Below are positions 3,618-58,965 of a stretch of DNA of 64,000 nt, one piece after another. The position numbers were made by a program, and so were the translations under genes. The notes beneath the pieces were generated by a model. The model did no database searches. It was not told the DNA's origin and saw nothing but the letters and a program-made list of their open reading frames with translations. Position 1 is the stretch's first letter. Each line of letters begins with the position of its first letter. The stretch is from Methanofollis formosanus (GTDB lineage Archaea > Halobacteriota > Methanomicrobia > Methanomicrobiales > Methanofollaceae): contig NZ_CP037968.1 in the NCBI RefSeq assembly GCF_019633745.1, positions 434,001-498,000 on the forward strand, read 5' to 3'.

Positions 3618-4560
3618 GAGATTAGATCTGCCGTCCCCTTATCGAAGAACGGTCCTGTCGTCTCGCGAGAGGATCGGTTGGGGACGGCAGGGAGTGACGT
3701 GCTCCCCTGCGGTTCTACTCCGAAAGAAATGATCTCTGTCTCCGGCGGCACCGGTCCGCATCTATCTTCAGGGTTTTGGATTGGGGGCGGCGTTCCCGCG
3801 GAGCGATGATCGCGACTCTTCCATCCCATTCCAATCTCCGGGGTCATGAAAACAGGACGGCGTCGTGATCCAAAGATGCCGTTCCCCTTCACTGAATTTG
3901 TTCTGGTATTTCGCGAGAAGATAGGGCGGGGGACGGCACGATTTGGTGTACTCTCTCCCTTCCGGTTCTATCTTCGGGATCATGAAAACAGGACCGCCTG
4001 ATGATCCGAACGTGCCGTCCTCTCATCACCGAATCTGTTCTGGTATTTCGCGAGAGGAGAGGATGGGGACGGCGAGGAGGGGTGATCCCGTTGAGTAATG
4101 ATCGGCCTTTCCCCGTCCGCGGTCTATCTTCGGGGCCATGTAAACAGAACAGCGTGACGATCATATCTTGCCGTCCCCTCATCAACGGATCTTCTCTGGT
4201 ATTTCGCGAGAGGATAGGGTGGGGGACGGCACCGCATATGATCCCGCTGAGAGGGGATCAATCACCACACTTCCGTCCGGGTTCTATCTTCAGGGTCATG
4301 CCGTCGAGAAAGGCATGATGATCAGCCCATGCCGCCCTCTCATCTTCATCATCGAATCTGTCCCGCAGCCTCGCGAGAGGATAGGGCGGGGGACGGCACG
4401 GGTTGGCGTGTTCCCACTGAATCATGATCGGCCCTTCCCTGTCCAGGTTCTATCTTCGGGATCATGGCAACGGGACGGCGTAACGATCCAGGTGTGCCAC
4501 CCCCCCGTGTAGAACCTGTTCTATCGTCTCGCGAGAGTGAAGTGTTCTATAGTATCGCGA
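3618..4560 (+). repeat. Tandem intergenic repeat array A1 (~158-bp units)
   Basis: This 1.2-kb gene-free gap is mostly filled by six or seven degenerate units. The anchor TCTCGCGAGA-like site recurs near 3660, 3909, 4046, 4203, 4370, 4527 and 4553. The unit order is TGCCGTCCCC, spacer, TCTCGCGAG, AAGATAGG, GGGGACGGCA, spacer, a TTCTATCTTCGGG-like module, GGGTCATG, then GTGATGATC. GCCGTCCCC and GGGGACGGC are inverted repeats around the palindrome. No conserved reading frame runs through the units. 4561-4730 is non-repetitive and I see nothing in it. Confidence 0.85.
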
Positions 4561-6013: not shown

Positions 6014-6383
6014 GGAGGGCACCGCGGACTCTCCCCCGCAGAAGATAGGGAGGAGGACGACAATCCCTTTTTTAGGATCATCAAAGATGCCTTCCCCCCT
6101 ATCGTCATCCCGGGGGTCAGGGGGCAGGGGCCCCGGCGGGAGGATTTGGGAAGGCATGATGATCAGACGTGCCGCCCTCGATTGTGTAGAAACTTCACCA
6201 CCGTCTCGCGCCGGGGGGCTTTGCCCCCCGGAACCCCCCACGGCGAAGATAGCCGAGGGGCGGCGATGGAACAGGATCCACACCAATTCTCATGTCTTAT
6301 AAAAGAGTGATCAAGCAACAGGAAATTTTCATCCCGTATGCCTGAGGCGTGTTCCCGCCTCATGCAAAATTCTACACGGCCCG
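6014..6383 (+). repeat. Dispersed family B element
   Basis: The gap between the QueG-like gene and thiC is one family B element. It has the core TCTCGCGCCGGGGGG, CTTTG loop, CCCCCCGG hairpin (about 6210-6233), then CGAAGATAG and GGGGCGGCG. A second GC hairpin (GGGGGTCAGGGGGCAGGGGCCCCGG) lies near 6110-6137. It ends with the family tail AAATTTTCATCCCGTATG and TTCTACACGGCC near 6370-6381. No gene is seen. Confidence 0.75.
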
Positions 6384-12486: not shown

Positions 12487-13686
12487 ATGAGTGCGGGAAA
12501 CGGACTGGGGCGCGAGCAGCGCCTCTTCCTGACGGGCCTTCTGGCACTCCTGGTCAGCACAGCCATCGCCGTCGTCGCCGGATCGTACCTCTCCTCGATC
12601 CGTGAGACCCTCGCCCTCATCCCGGGCCTGCTCGTCCTCGTCCCCCCGACGATCAATATGCGCGGCAGCATCTCCGGGGTGCTCGCCTCCCGTCTCTCCT
12701 CCTCGATGCACCTGGGCGAGTTCGCCCCCGACTGCCGGGGCGGCGTCCTCACCGAGAATCTGCACGCGGCGTTCATCCTCACGGTCGCCACCGCCCTTGC
12801 CCTCGGGTTCATTGCAAAGCTTGCAGCCTGGGCATTCGGGATCGAGGTGATCGCGGCCGGCGATCTTGTTCTCATCTCGGTGATCGCCGGGATCCTCTCA
12901 GGCCTCATCGTGATGGGCTTCACGGTCCTGGTCTCCGTCCTCTCGTACCGGCGCGGGGTGGATATGGACATGATCGCCGCGCCGGCGGTGACGACCCTCG
13001 GCGACCTGGTCACCATCCCGGTGCTGGCCGTCACGGCGGTGACGGTCACCGCTCTTCCCATGGGATGGAGGATGACCCTCCTCGCCGGTGTCCTCGTCAT
13101 CGCCGCGGGTGCGTCGGTGTACTCATGGATGCACGGGGCGCGGGCCAGAGATATTGTCTCTGAGATCCTGCCCCTCCTGGTCGGGCTCTCGGTCCTCGGC
13201 ACCGTCGCCGGCGTCACCTATACGATGGACCTCGACCGCCTCGTCGCCGTCGGGGCGCTGCTCATTCTCATCCCGCCCTTCGCCGGGATCTGCGGATCGA
13301 TCGGGGGGATCCTCTGCTCGCGCCTCGGCACCTGGATGCACCTCGGCCTCATCGAGCCGTCGATCCGCCCCTCCCGCGCCGTGGGGGTGCAGTTCGTCCA
13401 GAGTTACCTCTTCACCTTCCTCCTCCTCCCGCTGATGGCCGCCCTCGCCCACGGCGCCGCCCTCCTCCTCGGGGCGGCCTCGCCGGGCCTGCTCACCATG
13501 GTCGGGATCGCCCTCGGCGCGGGGGTCGTCGTGATGAGCATCGTCAACGGGATTGCCTACCTCACGGCCAGCATCTCGTTCAGGTACGGCTTCGACCCGG
13601 ACAACTTCGGGATCCCGGTGATCACCTCGGTGATCGACCTGCTGGGCGCGGTGGTGCTCATCTCGGTGATCAACCTGTTTCTGTGA
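12487..13686 (+). CDS. MgtE/SLC41-type divalent cation transporter
   Basis: A 399-residue integral membrane protein with two homologous halves, as in SLC41/MgtE carriers. The first half contains PGLLVLVPPTINMRGSISGV (about 48-67) and PAVTTLGDLVTIPVLA. The second half contains LIPPFAGICGSIGGIL (about 260-275) and PVITSVIDLLGAVVLI near the end. These paired G-S-I-G and D-L motifs line the ion path in the family. About ten membrane segments are visible. There is no cytosolic CBS or N domain, so regulation must come from another protein. The PhoU/TrkA-C protein at 15818 is a natural candidate. GGAGG at 12476-12480 precedes the ATG by 6 nt. Mg2+ is the likely but unproven substrate. Confidence 0.85.
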   Translation: MSAGNGLGREQRLFLTGLLALLVSTAIAVVAGSYLSSIRETLALIPGLLVLVPPTINMRGSISGVLASRLSSSMHLGEFAPDCRGGVLTENLHAAFILTVATALALGFIAKLAAWAFGIEVIAAGDLVLISVIAGILSGLIVMGFTVLVSVLSYRRGVDMDMIAAPAVTTLGDLVTIPVLAVTAVTVTALPMGWRMTLLAGVLVIAAGASVYSWMHGARARDIVSEILPLLVGLSVLGTVAGVTYTMDLDRLVAVGALLILIPPFAGICGSIGGILCSRLGTWMHLGLIEPSIRPSRAVGVQFVQSYLFTFLLLPLMAALAHGAALLLGAASPGLLTMVGIALGAGVVVMSIVNGIAYLTASISFRYGFDPDNFGIPVITSVIDLLGAVVLISVINLFL

Positions 13687-13734
13687 AGTGAACGGCTGCC
13701 CTGATCGTGCTGATGCTCGTCCCCTCCGGTCCCC

Positions 13735-15600
13735 TCGCGCGAAGATAGGTGGGGACGGTACGGAGCGATGTGCTCCCGCTGAAAAAAGATCAACTCTCTC
13801 CCGTCCGGGTTCTATCTTCGGGGTCGCGATGACGCGACGGCGTCACGATCAGATCGGCCGCCCCCTCGTCGCAGGATCTTTTCCGGCATCTCGCGAGGGG
13901 ATAGGGCAGGGGGCGGCGAGAATACGTGCCCTTCTCCTGTCCTTGATTTATCTTCGGGGTCATGATAACAGGACAAGGGTGATGATCTGATGTGCCGTCC
14001 CCTATTGCAGAACCTGTCCCGCCGTCTCGCGAGACGATGGAGCGGGGGACGGCACGGGATGGTGTGCTCCCGCTGAAAAAAGATCGGCGCTCTTCTGTCC
14101 TGGGTCTATCTTCAGGGTCATGAAAATGGGGTGGCGTGACGATCCGAATGTGCCATCCCCGATCATCGAGTCTTTCCCGTTGTCTCGCGAGAAGATAGGA
14201 CGGGAGGCGGCCGGGGCGCGTGTTCCCTCCGAAAATAGATCACCTCCTTTTCGTCCCGCTCCAATCTTCGGGGTCATGCCGACAGGGAGGCGTCGTGATC
14301 AAACCATACCGTTCCACTTCACATGATCTGTTCTGCCATTTCGCGAGAATATAGGACGGGGGACGGCAGGGGTTGGTATGCTCCCGCTGAAAAAAAGATC
14401 AACGATCTCCCGTCCGGGTTCTATCTTCGGGGTCATGACGACAGGACAGCGTACTGATCAGAATGTGCCGTCCCTTATCACCAGGTCTGTTCTGTCATCT
14501 CACAAGAAGATAGGATGGGGGACGGCACGGAGCGCGTGATCCCTCCGAAATGTGATCGGCTCTCTCCGATCCAGGTTCTATCTTCGAGGTCATGACGACA
14601 GAACAGCGTGATGATGATCCAACGTGCCGTCCCCCCATCACCGGGTCTGTTCTGTTATTTCGCGAGAAGATAGGACGGGGGACGACATCACGCGTGTTCC
14701 CTCAGAAAATAGATCAACTCTCTTGTGTCTGGGTTCTATCTTCGGGGTCATGACGACGAGAAAGGTGTGGTGATCAGAAAATGCCGTCCCCCACATCATC
14801 TGATCTGTTCTGCCGTTTCGCGCTAAGATAGAGCAGGGACGGCACAGGGTGGTGTGCTCCCGCTGAAAAAAGATCAGCCCTCTCCCGTCCTCGTTCAATC
14901 CTCGGGGTCACGACGAGGGGGAAAGCGTGATGATCCAAACATACCGTCCCCCCATCACCTGATCTGTTCTGTTATTTCGCGAAAAGATAGGACAGGGGAC
15001 GGCACGGATTGGGGTGCCTCTGCTGAAAAAAGATCAGCCCTCTCCCGTCCGGGTTCAATCCTCGGGATCACGACGAGGGGGAAAGCGTGATGATCCAAAC
15101 ATACCGTCCCCCATCACCTGATCTGTTCTGTTATTTCGCGAGAAGATAGGACGGGGAACGGCACGGGTTGGGGATGCTTCTGCTGAAAAAAGATCAGCCC
15201 TCTGCCTTCCCGGTTCTATCTTCGGGGTCGCGACAAGGGGACGGCGTGGTGATCAGGTGTGCCGTCCCCCTTCGCAGGATCTGTTCTGCCATCTCGCGAG
15301 AAGATAGAGTTGGGGACGGCACGGGGCGTTGTGCTCCTCTGCTGAATAATAATCGGCCCTCTCCCATCCTGGTTCAATCCTCGGGGTCACGATGACAGGC
15401 CGGTGTGACGATCAGACGTGCCGACCCTGTTCCTATCTTCATGCTTGGAATCGAGGGCGATGTCCCCGGTGAGGGGCTTCGTGATGGCGCGAGGATCACG
15501 ATCGTGCCGCCCCCATCGCAGAACGGTATTGCTGTCTCGCGCGAAGATAGCCGGGGGGCGGCGGCGTAGGTGATCCCGGTCCGCTGATCTGTCGTGATAA
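13735..15600 (+). repeat. Tandem intergenic repeat array A2, the longest (11-12 units of ~158 bp)
   Basis: The whole 2.1-kb gap between the cation transporter and the PhoU/TrkA-C gene is one array. The TCTCGCGAG anchor or a close variant recurs near 13735, 13890, 14024, 14184, 14340, 14498, 14659, 14817, 14977, 15137 and 15294, with a last degenerate copy near 15536. Spacing is 155-161 bp except for one 134-bp unit. The two units near 14880-15120 are almost identical, indicating recent duplication. Each unit has GTGCCGTCCCC and GGGGACGGCAC flanking the palindrome and an opposite-sense TTCTATCTTCGGGG module about 65 bp later. 15600-15817 is unique sequence with a TATA (TTAATATA, near 15774). 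Confidence 0.9.
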
Positions 15601-15817: not shown

Positions 15818-17011
15818 ATGATGGAAGTCGAATATCAGCCGACCAGCCTCAAGGATGTCCTCATCGAGATGAAGGATATCTCTGAACTGATGGTTGACCT
15901 CGCCTATTCTGCCATTCTTTTTGAAAGCCGGGACATCGCCGGCGAGGTGGGGAACCTCGAAGAGATCATGAACCGGCATGTCTACCAGGCCCGCATCTCG
16001 GCGATGCTCGGGGCGCGCAGGGTAGAGGAAGCCGAGTCGATGAGCGGGCTGCTGCAGATTGCGGAGTCGGCCGAGCGGATCTCGAACTCAGCCTCAGAGG
16101 TTGCAAAACTCATCCTCAAAGGGGCCAAGTTCCCGCAGAAACTCAGAGACGCTCTCCCCGCGGCTGAAGAGGTGACGGCGCGCGTCGAGGTCCAGAACGG
16201 CTCGGTCCTCGACGGCCAGACCCTGGGCGAGGTGAAACTCCAGAGCAGGTCCGGGATGCGCGTCATCGCGATCAGGCGGGGGAACGGATGGATCTACGAC
16301 CCGGACAAGTACTCCCGGGTCGCCGCCGGCGACATCCTCCTTGCCAAAGGACTTGAAGCCGGCATCCCCCCCTTCCGCATCATGGCCGGAGTGGTCCAGG
16401 AAGCGAAAAGAGAAGCGGCAAAGGCCGGATGCGTCGACGACCTCGATCGCGCCGTCGCCCTGATGATCGAGATGAAAAACCTCTCCGAACTCGCGGTCGG
16501 GCTTGCATACACCTCGCTCCTCTTCACCAACGAGGACGTGGCCCAGCAGGTCGTCGCCCTCGACGAGAAGATGGAGGACATGCGCTACCAGTTCGACCTC
16601 TGGGTGCTCGAGGCCGCCAAGCGCATCGAGAACGTGGAATATCTCCGCGGCCTCCTCTACCTCTCCTCCTTTGCCGAGACCATCTCGGGGGCGGCCTCCG
16701 CGATCGCCGAGGTGCTCCTCAGGGACATCGAAGTTCCGCCGGTCTTCAGGATGATCGTGCGCGAGTCCGACGAGATCATCACCCACCTCACGGTGGAAGA
16801 AGGCTCGGCCCTTTCCGGCCGGAGCCTCAAGGAGGCGTCGCTGGCGACCGTCACCGGCATGGTGGTGCTGGCGGTCAAACGCGGCGGCGAACGCTGGAAG
16901 TACCGTCCTGGCCGCGACGAACGGCTTCACGCAGGCGATCGCATCATCGCAAAAGGGAGACGAGACGGCGAAGAACGGCTTGCCTCCCTTTGTTCAGGTG
17001 AGAATACATAA
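15818..17011 (+). CDS. Duplicated PhoU/TrkA-C (RCK-C) regulatory protein
   Basis: A 397-residue cytoplasmic protein made of two copies of the same module: a PhoU-like helical domain (about 10-105 and 210-305) followed by an RCK-C/TrkA-C domain (about 115-190 and 315-385). The repeats align well: VLIEMKDISELMVDLAYSAI versus LMIEMKNLSELAVGLAYTSL, and GSVLDGQTLGEVKL versus GSALSGRSLKEASL. RCK-C domains bind small ligands and gate cation channels or carriers. With an MgtE/SLC41 carrier as upstream neighbour it is probably the regulatory partner. The array between them leaves it with its own promoter (TTAATATA near 15774). Two consecutive ATGs (15818, 15821) are possible starts. Confidence 0.85.
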   Translation: MMEVEYQPTSLKDVLIEMKDISELMVDLAYSAILFESRDIAGEVGNLEEIMNRHVYQARISAMLGARRVEEAESMSGLLQIAESAERISNSASEVAKLILKGAKFPQKLRDALPAAEEVTARVEVQNGSVLDGQTLGEVKLQSRSGMRVIAIRRGNGWIYDPDKYSRVAAGDILLAKGLEAGIPPFRIMAGVVQEAKREAAKAGCVDDLDRAVALMIEMKNLSELAVGLAYTSLLFTNEDVAQQVVALDEKMEDMRYQFDLWVLEAAKRIENVEYLRGLLYLSSFAETISGAASAIAEVLLRDIEVPPVFRMIVRESDEIITHLTVEEGSALSGRSLKEASLATVTGMVVLAVKRGGERWKYRPGRDERLHAGDRIIAKGRRDGEERLASLCSGENT

Positions 17012-21085: not shown

Positions 21086-21835
21086 AGCCCAGGATACTTT
21101 TGGGATATGCTCCATGAAAATGATCGCTAAAATTGTGTCTATAGATGTTGCATGATGATTCGAACTCACCAAATCTCGCTGAAGCCGATATACAGAGGAT
21201 AAAATCTTCTTCAGAGTGATCAGCCGCTCCAATCGTTGAATCTTCACCGCTGTCTTGTGCCGGGGGGTTGCACCCCTGATTCCTCACGACGAGGATAGAC
21301 GGGGGCGGCGATGGAACAAGACCCCACCGGTTCTTCAGTCTTGAATAAAAGAGCGATCGAACGACGAGAAATTTTCATCCCGTATGTTTGAGGCGTAATC
21401 TCGCCTCATGAGCAATTACCATGAAAATGATCCTGACGATCATCTCTCCAGGTTTCCATAATGGTTTGAATCCACCACCCGCCTTCAGGACAGATACAGA
21501 TATTGCAGATGCATCTCCTGAATGATCGGGCCTCTGCCTTCCCGGCCCTATCTTCGTCCCGGGGGTCCGGGGGCAGCGCCCCCGGCACCGATGTTTGGGA
21601 AGGCGTGATGATCCGATGTGCCGCCCCCATCGTAGAATCGTTCCTGGAATCCCGCACCGGGGGGTTTCACCCCCCGGACCCCCCACGACGAAGATCGGTG
21701 GGGGCGGCAATGAAGTGGTCGCCCTATGTGGTGTCCTGCTCCGAAGAGGGAGCAAGGATCCACTCACTAGAGACCACCAAGAATTTTCATCCCGTATGCT
21801 TGAGCCCAGGGTTCATGTCCGATTCTACAAAGCCC
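21086..21835 (+). repeat. Two further family B long modules in tandem
   Basis: The rest of the 1.2-kb gap up to the GTPase gene. 21110-21420 carries the long module: CATGAAAATGATC start, CCGGGGGGTTGCACCCC hairpin, GAGGATAG, AAATTTTCATCCCGTATG tail. 21421-21835 repeats it with both hairpins intact: CCGGGGGCAGCGCCCCCGG near 21573 and CCGGGGGGTTTCACCCCCCG near 21658. The outer end is TTCTACAAAGCC (21823-21834). 21840-21970 is AT-rich promoter DNA. Confidence 0.75.
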
Positions 21836-31973: not shown

Positions 31974-32285
31974 GCTCTTTAGAATTCGGCATGAGGCGAG
32001 ATCACGCCTCAAGCATACGGGATGAATATTTCTCGTCGCTTGCTCTCCCATATTCAGACAGGAAAACTGGTGGAGACCTCGCTCCATCACCGCCCCCACC
32101 TATCTTCGATCCGTGGGGGAACGAGCGCTAGCGAGTTCGAGAAGACGAAGTCTTCGCTGAAGACCGAAGGGAGTCGAGACAATCTCCGATTTTCGAGTGT
32201 GAGCGGAGCGAACATGAAAAGAACGGCAGGTCTTCGAGCGGCTAGCCCTGCACAGAGATAGTTATCCAGAGGAATTCTAAGTGCT
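31974..32285 (-). repeat. Divergent family B element
   Basis: Bounded by GCTCTTTAGAATTC (31974-31987) and GAATTCTAAGTGC (32272-32284), imperfect inverted repeats. Near the left end it carries the family tail CAAGCATACGGGATGAATATTT and then CCCCCACCTATCTTCGAT. The interior (AACGAGCGCTAGCGAGTTCG, AGAAGACGAAGTCTTCG) is shared with the copy near 41728-41775 but not with the others. 32286-32391 shows nothing. Confidence 0.55.
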
Positions 32286-40965: not shown

Positions 40966-41830
40966 TGTAGAATCGGGCATGAACGCCGGGCTCAAGCATA
41001 CGCGGGTGAATAGTGCTCGGAGCAGCGTTTCAGGGTTTGGACGGCTCTCTCTCCTTGCTGCAGGGAGGGATCATTCAATCGCCGCCCCCCCGCAATCTTC
41101 GGCCGTGGGGGCGGGGCGGCACCAATCTCTTGAACGACACCGTGCTTCAGAAACTTTTTCCACTCGCCGATCAAGGCCAGAGATAGTCTTTCAGAGAACT
41201 CTGTAGAATCAGGCATGAACCCGAGGTTCAAGCATACGGGACGAAAATTTCTCGTCGCTTGATCGCTCCTTTTCAAGACAGGAGAACTGGTTGATACCCC
41301 GCTCCATCGCCGCCCCGCCCTATCTTCTCGCGAGATGGCAGGAACGATCGTGCGATAGGGGGGGCGGCACGCCTGATCAGCACGCCTTCCCCCATCCTCC
41401 CGCCGGCGGCGCTGCCCCCGGACCCCCGGGATGAAGATTGGGTCGGAAGGTGGAGAGATGACCTGAAGAGGGGGGTGCAATCCGCCACCTATCTTCGCGC
41501 GGGGGGTTTGTGGGGCGGCCAGCCCCCCGAAGAAATAGCCACCCAGAGCATTTCTACATAGCCGAAAATCGGACTCTGTAAAATCAGGCATGAACCCTGG
41601 GCCCAAGCATAGGCGATGAAAATATTCTGAGTAGCGTTTCAGCATGTGGGCGGATCCCCCTCAATCGCGACAGGGCATCTGGAAGATCTGGTTTCATCGC
41701 CGCCCCCTGGCTATCTTCGTCAGTGGGGGGAACGAACATCAGCGAGTTCGAGAAGACCGGAGGTCTTCGAGTCCGGGGGGACGGCGAAGTCCGGTGTTCA
41801 CACCTGCCGCCCTGTGGTGAGAGGAGTGAT
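40966..41830 (-). repeat. Three family B long modules in inverted orientation
   Basis: Each copy starts with a CTGTAGAATC-type end and GGCATGAAC (near 40965, 41201 and 41566), then CAAGCATACGGG and CGCCGCCCC followed by an ATCTTC module. The middle copy carries TATCTTCTCGCGAGATGG (41319-41336), the plain family A palindrome without the GC hairpin, and ends in TTCTACATAGCC. The third is a degenerate copy sharing AGCGAGTTCGAGAAGAC with the 31974 element. No genes lie in this 0.9-kb gap. Confidence 0.7.
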
Positions 41831-44109: not shown

Positions 44110-44900
44110 GATTATCCCCGGGCGGTGGGCGGCACGGGGTGGTTTTCGTGTCAGAATAATTGATCGCCCTTCTCTCGTCCTGCTCCAATCTTCAGGGTCA
44201 TGAATGCGGGATGGCGTAATGATCCAAATGTGCCGTCCCTGTCATCATTGGATCTTTTCTGCCATCTCGCAAGAAGATAGGACAGGACGGAGGGTGCATG
44301 ACTTCACTGCCATCAGGGTTCTATCTTTGAGGTCATGACGACGGGACGGCATGGTGATCAGAAAAGCCGTCCCCGATCACTGAATTTGTTCTGGTATTTC
44401 GCGAGATGATCGTGCGGGGGACGGCACCACGCGTGCTCTCTCAGAAGAGGGATCTCCGCTCTTCCGTTCCGTTCCAATCTTCGGGGTCATGAAAACAGGA
44501 CGGCGGGATGATGATCTAACGTGCCGTCCCACCTCACATGATCTGTCCTGCCGTCTCGCGTGAAGATAGAACGGGGGACGGCACGGGGCGGTGTGCTCCT
44601 CGGAAGAATGATCGGCCCTTTCATGTCCGGGATCTATCTTCGGGGTCATGACGACGGAACAGCGTACTGATCCTGATATGCCGTCCCCTCATCATGGGAA
44701 CGGTTCTGCTGTCTCGCGAGAAGATAGGGAGGGGACGGCATCACGCGTGATCCCGTTGAAGAATGATCGGCCCTCTACCGTCCCACCCTAATCTTCGGGG
44801 TCATGAAAACAGACCCATGTGATGATCAGGTGTGCCGTCCCCTTTTGTAGAACCTTTTCGTCATATCGTGAGAAGATAGAAATGAGGCGGCGATGAAGCG
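44110..44900 (+). repeat. Tandem intergenic repeat array A3
   Basis: Five family A units in plus orientation. Anchor sites are near 44265, 44399, 44557, 44715 and 44868, mostly about 158 bp apart. TTCTATCTTCGGGG-like modules with GTCATGA lie between them. It fills most of the gap between two convergent genes. 43844-44109 is unique sequence with only weak ORFs, and I see nothing in it. Confidence 0.85.
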
Positions 44901-45004
44901 GTCTGCCCCTCTGCTGTGAAAGAAGCGATCGTTTTTCTAACATGCACCCGGCCCGCTCGCCACCGAGGAAAGACCCGGCGAAATTCTCCGGAACCACATA
45001 AATT

Positions 45005-45546
45005 GGCTTTGTAGAATCAGGCATGAACCCCTGGCTCAAGCATACGGGATGAAAATTTTTCGTCGTTTGCTCTCTCTATTCAAGACAGGAGAATCTGGGG
45101 GGATCGTGTTCCATCGCCGCCCCCACCTATCTTCGTCGTGGGGGTCCGGGGGGTGAAACCCCCCGGCGCGAGATTGCGGGAAAGATTTGACGATTCGGGG
45201 CGGCCGATCCATTAGAGGAATTTTTTATCTTCTGCGTATCGGCTTCAAAGGGATATGGCGAGTTCAAACTCTCATGCAAACCTGAAGGGAGGATCGTCAG
45301 GATCATTTTCATGGTAAATCATCGTGATGGTTCTCTTCGACAGGGGGCTTGCCGCCCCCCGAACCCCCCGCGCGAAGATAGGCGGCGGACTGCAACCCCC
45401 CTTTCAGGGTCATTGCTCCGCCTTCCGCCCCGATATTCATCCTGGGGGTCCGGGGACTCTCCCCCTGGCGTGAGGATGAAGGAAGGCGATGGATTCAGTT
45501 CACAAGGGGGTTGAGGTGATGAAAAGAGGATGTTTTCTACAGAGCC
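45005..45546 (+). repeat. Composite family B element with near-perfect target duplication
   Basis: A 542-bp element: GGCTTTGTAGAA (45005-45016), long module inverted, junction GATCATTTTCATGGTAAA (45301-45318), short module, then TTCTACAGAGCC (45535-45546). Flanking octamers are CATAAATT (44997-45004) and CAAAAATT (45547-45554), 7 of 8 identical, consistent with a transposition target duplication. The inner hairpins are CCGGGGGG/CCCCCCGG type. Confidence 0.8.
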
Positions 45547-48968: not shown

Positions 48969-49049
48969 TGGCGGAACCGATCCGGTGAATCGGGGCGGCA
49001 TGTTCTGACCCCCCCCACCTCTCCTTTCGTCACGCCAGGGACGCCGCCC

Positions 49050-49775
49050 ACGATCCAAAACCCTGAAGATAGAGGGGAGCGGCCACGCCGGCGATCCAGA
49101 TCCATGCTCTTCCAACAGAACAGCGGAGGAGCACATCACCCCGTGCCGTGCCCCAACCGATCTTCATGCGAGACGGCAGAACAGTTTCCATGATGAGGGG
49201 ACGGCATGTGCTGATCACGACGCTGTCCTGTCGTCCCGACCCCGGAGATAGAACCTGGACGGGAGATAGTTGATCTTTATCCAGCAGGATCACGCCGCCC
49301 GTGCCGCCCCCACCCTATCTTCTCGCGAGATGACAGGACAGACCTGGTGATGGGGGGCGGCACGTTGGATCATCATCACGCCGTCCCGTTGTCATGACCC
49401 CGAGGATAGAACCTGGACGGGAGATAGTTGATCTTTTTTCAGCGGGAGCACACCAAACCTTGCTGTCCCCCATCCTATCTTCTCGCGAAACGGCAAGACA
49501 GATCAGGTGACGGAGGACGGCACGTTGGATCATCATCACGCCGTCCCGTTTTCATGACCCCGAAGATAGAACCCGGACCGGAGAGAGTTGATCTATTTTC
49601 GGAGGGAACACGCGTGATGCTGTCCCCTTTTCTATCTTCTCGCGAAAGAACAGAAAAGATTCAGTGATCGGGGACGGCCTATCGGACCATTACGCATTCT
49701 CGTCGTCATGGCCCCGAAGATAGATCCCGGACCGGAGAGAGTCGATCTCTTTTCAGCGGGGGGGCGCCGCCCCCG
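49050..49775 (-). repeat. Tandem intergenic repeat array A4 (inverted)
   Basis: Four to five family A units in the opposite orientation to the other arrays. The reverse-sense anchor TATCTTCTCGCGAG recurs near 49315, 49474 and 49633 (159-bp spacing), with a weaker copy near 49158. GATAGAACC-type and GATCTTTTTTCAGCGGGAGC modules alternate with them. It lies between two convergent genes. Confidence 0.85.
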
Positions 49776-50987: not shown

Positions 50988-51425
50988 ATAAATCTGACCG
51001 GTATCAGATGTGCCGCCTCCACTGGGGACGTTGCCCCCTGACCCCCCTCGGAGAGAGGGAAGGCAAGGGCGGCGAGGGGTGATGTTTCTCGTACGTTGTT
51101 CTGTTGTGAGATAAGTGATCAGATCTCTGACGTGGCCTTCCCGCCCCAATCGCAATCCCGGGGGTTCCGGGGGCAGAGCCCCCGGCACAACCATGTGGGA
51201 AGGCGTGATGATCAGACGTGCCATCCTCAATTGCAGCATCTTCCCCGGCGTCTCGCGCCGGGGGGCAAGTGCCCCCCGGATCCCCCACGACGAAGATAGG
51301 TGGGGGCGGCCATGGAACACGATCCCCGCCGATTCTTCTCTCTTGAAAAAGAGCGATCAAGCAACGAGAAATTTTCATCCCGTATGCTTGAGGCGTGCTT
51401 TCCCCTCATGAAAAATTCCACACCG
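50988..51425 (+). repeat. Family B long module
   Basis: It follows the MITE-like copy directly. It holds TTCCGGGGGCAGAGCCCCCGG (51168-51188), TCTCGCGCCGGGGGGCAAGTGC followed by CCCCCGG (51251-51279), ACGAAGATAGGTGGGGGCGGC and the AAATTTTCATCCCGTATGCTTG tail (51369-51390). No gene. Confidence 0.7.
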
Positions 51426-58305: not shown

Positions 58306-58965
58306 ATAGTAAACCGGGCACGAACCCCGGGTTCAAGGACACGCAGTTGAAATTTGATCACTGCTCAGGTCTATGGTGATCGGATGTGCCGCTCCGTTCG
58401 GAGAATCTTTCCTTAATCTCACGCCGGGGGCGCTGCCCCCGGACCCCCACGGCGAAGATAACCGGGGAGCGGCAAGGTGCTGTATTCTTAAATCTGCTCT
58501 ACCGTCTTGAGAGATGATCGGGATCTCTAGCGTGGCCTTCCCACCCCCATCGCAATCCCGGGGGTCCGGGGGCAGAGCCCCCGGCAAGAAAATAGTGGAG
58601 GGCGGTTGAATCGCGCTCGCATCCGGAAAAAGTCAGGGTTTACCATGAAAATGATCCAGAAGATTCTCTCTTCAGGTTTGCATGAGAGTTTGAACTCGTC
58701 ATATCACGTTGAAGCCGATACACAGAGGATAGAATATTCTTCTGATGGATCGGCCGCCCTCATCATCGAGATTTCCCTGCCATCTCGCGCCGGGGGGTTT
58801 CACCCCCCGGACCCCCCACGGACCGAAGATAGGTGGGGGCGGCGAAGTGAACACGATCCGCACCGATTCTCCTCTCTTGAAAAAGAGCGATCAAGCAACG
58901 AGAAATTTTCATCCCGTATGCTTGAACCCACGTTCATGCCCGATTCAACAGAGCCCAATTTATGT
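58306..58965 (+). repeat. Composite family B element
   Basis: A short-type module (58306-58640) with CGGGGGCGCTGCCCCCGG (58423-58440) and CCGGGGGCAGAGCCCCCGG (58567-58585) hairpins joins through TTTACCATGAAAATGATCC (58640-58658) to the long module with CCGGGGGGTTTCACCCCCCG (58791-58810), and ends in TTCAACAGAGCC (58944-58955). No ORF is credible. 58966-59069 shows nothing. Confidence 0.7.

Follow-up and report, generated by a model that had tools for sequence, protein, structure and literature searches.

A BIME-like intergenic repeat amplified in tandem arrays in Methanofollis formosanus

Introduction

What is the long block of palindromic repeats that separates two genes in the chromosome of the archaeon Methanofollis formosanus, and how did it come to be there? 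A preliminary description of the locus, made from the sequence letters, had noted a large tandem array and set it apart both from CRISPR and from any REP/BIME layout known to its author. We examined the array within a window of 64,000 nucleotides, positions 434001-498000 of the single 2,965,921-base chromosome, and then in the genome and its relatives. Coordinates refer to the window unless they are marked as genome positions.

Several known repeat systems offer points of comparison. The BIME-2/REP elements of E. coli, Stenotrophomonas and Xanthomonas occur in more than 100 intergenic copies, with alternating palindromic modules joined by a short and a long linker, and BIME-2 in E. coli binds gyrase (PMC2817692). 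The rPQS elements of Methanomicrobiaceae are intergenic, with about half of them tail-to-tail and 11% head-to-head, and show no strand bias (PMC8044849). Prokaryotic satellites are long-period tandem repeats that, among archaea, are commonest in Methanomicrobia; most long-repeat families in that survey are coding, and transposition of non-coding satellites is rare (PMC6749651). A search of the open-access literature returned no description of the 157-bp repeat reported here.

Results

The main array occupies positions 13720-15565 on the forward strand and has the structure A-(B-A)x11, with a unit of ~157 bp. It sits in the gap between the stop codon of an MgtE-like gene (12487-13686) and the region that carries the promoter of a PhoU/TrkA-C-like gene (15818-17011), both names being assigned from reading the translations; relatives of the MgtE-like gene are found in Methanofollis and other Methanomicrobiaceae. 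The period of ~158 bp proposed earlier was confirmed: Tandem Repeats Finder reported a period of 159-160 at 14027-15414 (score 1102, 74% matches), and the boxes are spaced by 156-160 bp, apart from a single interval of 136 bp and the final one, which is degenerate and measures 243 bp. The array is thus real. The eleven to twelve units of opposing modules that had been described correspond to 12 A boxes (CTCGCGAGAAGATAG-like), which alternate strictly with 11 B boxes (CTATCTTCGGGGTCATGA-like), and an A module stands at both ends. As far as tested, the array also lacks coding content, as had been claimed; a rough gene caller placed 0 genes in it, and the open reading frames listed inside it are at most 100 aa long or enter from a flank.

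Along the 157-bp consensus, module A (TGCCGTCCCCCATCACCGGATCTGTTCTGCCGTCTCGCGAGAAGATAGGGCGGGGGACGGCA) is followed by the long linker (~40 bp), module B (CCCGTCCCGGTTCTATCTTCGGGGTCATGACAACGGGACGG) and the short linker CGTGATGATCAGAACG; module sizes are ~62 bp for A and ~45 bp for B. An example of the A module lies on the forward strand at approximately 14621-14690 and reads GTGCCGTCCCC..TTTCGCGAGAAGATAG..GGGGGACGACA, with outer arms GCCGTCCCC/GGGGACGGC; an example of the B module, on the same strand at approximately 14716-14773, has arms flanking TTCTATCTTCGGGGTCATGAC. There is also a second, shorter class of units of ~135 bp. The preliminary description had taken B for the simple inverse of GAAGATAG, a reading that we replace: B appears instead to be a shorter, diverged and inverted relative of A. 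In the consensus alone, which is devoid of the hairpins discussed below, this inverted relation is weak (p = 0.04). In the hairpin-bearing forms, here called A' and B', B' can be aligned with the reverse complement of A' through CTATCTTC-GTC..GGGGGTCCGGGGG..CCCCCGG-CGCGA. Scores reach 47, where the maxima for shuffles are 24-37, and some A'/B' pairs do not align above shuffles. It is mainly from these forms that A and B appear to be inverted relatives of one palindromic module.

We analyzed covariation among 177 units. The outer arms of A covary, with 28 compensated cells against 12 ± 3 in shuffled data, and exceed the mock-pair control. The formal pair test on the same units gave no covariation beyond controls for the B arms, for the GAAGATAG/CTATCTTC complement or for TCTCGCGAGA, and the last is exact in just 47% of units. 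A kissing or alternative pairing of GAAGATAG with CTATCTTC was rejected, its covariation being at shuffle level only. By mutual information, Watson-Crick pairs were scarce among the highest-ranking pairs and no helix emerged; the columns that covary most strongly are mostly local and non-Watson-Crick. This pattern fits a DNA palindrome in A over a structured RNA, and template-switch correction of quasi-palindromes could be an alternative source of the A-arm covariation.

The window carries four arrays of the same unit. The second, at 3629-4489 on the forward strand, has 6 matches, of which 5 are near full length; the third, at 44120-45204 on the forward strand, has 7 matches (4 near full length); and the fourth, at 49041-49771 on the reverse strand between convergent genes, has 5 (4 near full length). 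A lone weak copy (46 bits) lies on the reverse strand at 41213-41369, inside a cluster of hairpin-bearing elements and of the tail repeat C described below. Genome-wide, the unit occurs ~300 times, in intergenic arrays that number more than 50. Whole-genome BLAST gave 197 matches with one unit and 242 with the consensus, and the B box CTATCTTCGGGGTCATGA, allowing up to 2 mismatches, matched 163 + 133 = 296 times while its reversed control matched 0 times; chance is therefore excluded as the origin of the array. In the fetched genome stretches we counted 254 near-full units altogether, and 48 arrays with at least 2 of them; array counts combine the searches with these stretches, and the B-box search includes additional arrays beyond them. 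Unit orientation agrees with that of its own array in 327 of 330 matches. Since the entire 157-bp unit recurs, with a median pairwise identity of 73%, and identical short repeats with unique spacers are not seen, the earlier statement that this is not CRISPR stands.

Three further features of the sequence were recorded. A stretch of 517 kb, running from 2.870 Mb across the record start to 0.422 Mb, contains none of the listed B boxes (simulated p 0.02); it still holds hairpin-bearing solitary elements and an A box at 0.116 Mb, and we make no claim of clustering. GATC density is about 2-fold higher in the arrays (18.3/kb) than in the rest of the window (9.8/kb). An Orc1/Cdc6-like gene at genome positions 395727-396756 is apparently split into two overlapping frames, and four intact paralogues are present elsewhere.

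The arrays favour the 3' ends of genes and shun divergent promoters. Genes were assigned with a simple script based on codon usage, and single arrays may be misclassified as a result. The 47 classifiable arrays lie between 23 convergent, 22 tandem and 2 divergent gene pairs, whereas divergent gaps account for 36 of the 106 other intergenic gaps of more than 100 bp at these loci (Fisher test, p = 3e-5 for divergent and 0.001 for convergent gaps). Three arrays touch a predicted open reading frame at one edge, and the arrays otherwise lie between genes as placed by this rough caller. Array orientation is unrelated to gene direction, being the same in 8 tandem contexts and opposite in 14 (p = 0.29). 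As a separate observation, one of the longest arrays, with 9 near-full units, begins ~145 bp beyond a GyrA homologue (816-aa open frame) in the genome interval 835754-839826.

Where the unit came from is suggested by a second type of element, which occurs singly and has the order B'-A'-C, with GC-rich hairpins in both B' and A'. In the window we found such presumed parent forms at 6085-6376, 21531-21830 and 51150-51422, all on the forward strand. When the array unit was aligned to solitary B'-A', the long gaps coincided with the hairpins of B' and A'; the alignments scored 64, 81 and 82 in three of four elements against a shuffle maximum of 45, and the fourth, partial element was marginal (40.6 versus 39.4). 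The hairpin-bearing A' motif has 298 matches in M. formosanus and 113, 174 and 73 in the relatives labelled G001, G006 and G007, and at most 13 in each of the other eight Methanofollis genomes. Most likely, judging from these alignments, the array unit is a deletion derivative of the older dispersed B'-A'-C element that lost the hairpins of both modules. We infer loss rather than gain; the alternative is that the hairpin was inserted later.

The tail repeat C is ~100 bp long (..GACGAGAAATTTTCATCCCGTATGCTTGA..) and has 45 matches in 495 kb of fetched sequence; the examples in the window include 6275-6376, 21322-21417, 31980-32078, 41202-41298 and 58855-58950, plus others. At nearly all array edges that bear a C tail, the tail points outward. 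We rejected C as the terminal inverted repeat of one large element, since just 1 array among 48 is flanked by it at both ends.

The amplified form is restricted to one lineage. Exact A boxes number 138 in M. formosanus. Across 198 other genomes of the order the count is 0-2 per genome, and all the positives among these belong to the genus Methanofollis. The B box occurs 296 times in M. formosanus versus 0-2 times in each of 11 other Methanofollis genomes, where most matches come from a single recurring and perhaps unrelated sequence, CCATCTCCGGGGTCATGA; recognisable units number 0-5 per congener. At the main-array site the stop-to-start distance is 2134 bp in M. formosanus. The corresponding gap is 444 bp in G001, which has no recognisable unit there, and 1206 bp with other repeats in G006. 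G008 and G002 have gaps of 540 and 76 bp, and those of G005 and G010 are similarly short on reading the sequence. Because the gaps of the relatives are shorter and that of G001 has no unit, we regard the main array as lineage-specific.

G001, G006 and G007 share a few array sites with M. formosanus, at 1-2.5 units each. At 2.630 Mb, where the flanks are 91% and 88% identical to those of G001, M. formosanus has 7 matches and G001 ~2.5 units; the 1.889 Mb site has ~3 units versus ~1.7 in G006, the 2.511 Mb site has 3-5 versus ~1.5 in G007, and the 1.258 Mb site has ~1 unit in G001. Near the last site, a comparison of genome positions 1246500-1263000 with G001 showed a gene-order break, in which the ends of an inverted segment lie within ~30-70 bp of the oppositely oriented arrays at 1250302 and 1258126. 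This single case is as expected if inverted arrays recombine.

Units have been duplicated locally within arrays, as had been proposed. Of 173 units, 75 have their closest match inside their own array, where 4.9 would be expected, and only 29 of these 75 closest units are direct neighbours, which suggests that blocks are duplicated besides single units. Two arrays of inverse orientation 12 kb apart (2.762 and 2.774 Mb) have 94%-identical units in common. The adjacent units of the main array that had been called almost identical are indeed similar and locally duplicated, but the pair at ~14836-15112 is 91% identical over 117 bp and not identical. In 42 recent pairs, the units differ at rates of 0.18, 0.10 and 0.036 at positions of low, middle and high information; between the least and the most conserved third of positions, the divergence of recent duplicates thus falls 5-fold. 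The boxes are constrained. This could mean host selection over pure selfishness, although conversion among units would give a similar pattern.

We also searched for a mobilising agent. The Y1_Tnp domain (PF01797) gave 0 matches in the M. formosanus genome and was positive in 5 of 14 control genomes, and a RAYT was accordingly rejected as the associated transposase. A phage or plasmid origin was likewise rejected, since the phage and plasmid collections gave no match at E 1e-5.

Discussion

In layout and placement the repeat is BIME-like. The preliminary description had seen no known REP/BIME layout here, a view that we do not retain, because alternating inverted palindromic modules in tandem, in intergenic positions and in more than 100 copies (296 B-box matches), are the layout of BIME-2 (PMC2817692). 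The regular short and long linkers, the tandem arrays of variable length and the species-specific abundance are further likenesses, the alternating orientation resting on the A'/B' inverted relation, which is weak in the consensus alone. The repeat differs from BIME-2/REP in its archaeal host, its unrelated sequence and its module sizes, ~62 and ~45 bp where REP units have 20-40 bp and a GTAG/CGTC end tag; GTAG is absent from the consensus and CGTC is not at the unit end. Because neither this tag nor a RAYT was found, we do not assign the repeat to REP/BIME.

The hairpin-bearing forms recall the rPQS motif reported for Methanofollis and other Methanomicrobiaceae (PMC8044849). B' and A' carry a core of a G-run, TCC or TCA and a second G-run, together with a C-rich hairpin, and the gene contexts of the arrays (23 convergent, 22 tandem, 2 divergent) resemble the mostly tail-to-tail and rarely head-to-head placement of rPQS. 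The array units, unlike rPQS, lack precisely that hairpin and also the four G-runs with a 3' C-rich tract, and they stand in tandem, whereas rPQS elements are single interspersed motifs; the solitary relatives have a similar core. The parts of the source consulted describe no 157-bp unit, and the match is by motif and not by its coordinates. With MITEs and other non-autonomous elements the repeat shares small size, dispersal, non-coding sequence and inverted arms, here the outer A arms, as well as C tails directed outward at array edges. Its tandem growth to 11 units is unusual for such elements. The search for Y1_Tnp gave no matching transposase, and the empty main-array site of the relative is too diverged for a target-site duplication to be read. 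Like prokaryotic satellites it is a long-period tandem repeat in Methanomicrobia and, unlike them, it is one non-coding family at more than 50 sites (PMC6749651).

We consider it probable that the repeat is a lineage-amplified, BIME-like intergenic derivative of a hairpin element that was dispersed by copying, lengthened by local recombination and maintained mainly as a selfish or neutral sequence. The older dispersed B'-A'-C element would have lost the GC-rich hairpins of both modules and become the array unit, which a copying process may then have seeded at new intergenic sites. Array length would change in both directions through recombination or slippage between units, and arrays would persist mainly at gene 3' ends, where promoters stay uncut. 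Recognition of the constrained boxes probably takes place at the DNA level, through the machinery of mobilisation or recombination or through a protein that binds DNA or acts on its topology. The repeat is probably mostly selfish, and a role of arrays in topology or termination is possible.

Other explanations draw on some of the same observations. The arrays might be functional chromosome elements at gene ends that offer multiple binding sites to DNA gyrase or a nucleoid protein and take up positive supercoils where genes converge, a role proposed for E. coli BIME-2. The strong preference for convergent and tandem gaps, the constrained boxes, the presence of a GyrA homologue (835754-837067) and the binding of gyrase by E. 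coli BIME-2 (PMC2817692) are consistent with such a role. We nevertheless regard it as unlikely, given that the amplified form is missing from eleven congeners and the main-array site is empty in the nearest relative, while purging of harmful insertions would also yield promoter avoidance. A broader version, in which loss of a G-quadruplex or hairpin core created a tandem-forming repeat that spread without a Y1 transposase, with gyrase or a nucleoid protein binding the arrays between converging genes and the arrays shaping chromosome topology in one species, is speculative, and we give it rather little credence. Each unit could instead be a transcription-termination or mRNA 3'-end element, a bidirectional hairpin with a T run that was duplicated for strength. 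The arrays do sit after stop codons, the A hairpin arms covary, and the A-run of some units is a T run on the opposite strand; however, an A-run of at least 5 is present in only 23% of units and the T run is not conserved, orientation ignores gene direction in tandem contexts, and a single unit would suffice, all of which makes this improbable.

That the arrays encode structured non-coding RNAs is very improbable. The unit consensus folds into stable hairpins and the outer A arms covary, but an Rfam scan of the window returned no match, covariation above controls is confined to those arms among the pairings tested, and the top covarying columns are mostly local and non-Watson-Crick. It is hardly credible that short-read assembly inflated the number of units: the published genome of M. 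formosanus DSM 15483 was made from Illumina reads only (PMC9119062), which leaves room for such an artefact, but the units differ by a median of 27%, so that reads can place them, and the separately assembled G001, G006 and G007 have the same units at orthologous sites.

BIME-like alternating arrays are described from bacteria, where they are explained by RAYT transposases. In M. formosanus, ~300 units without a Y1 transposase, congeners with 0-5 units and intact solitary relatives together form a natural before-and-after comparison. This comparison could throw light on the origin and growth of such arrays, and on whether their placement at gene ends reflects selection for a function or purging of insertions elsewhere.
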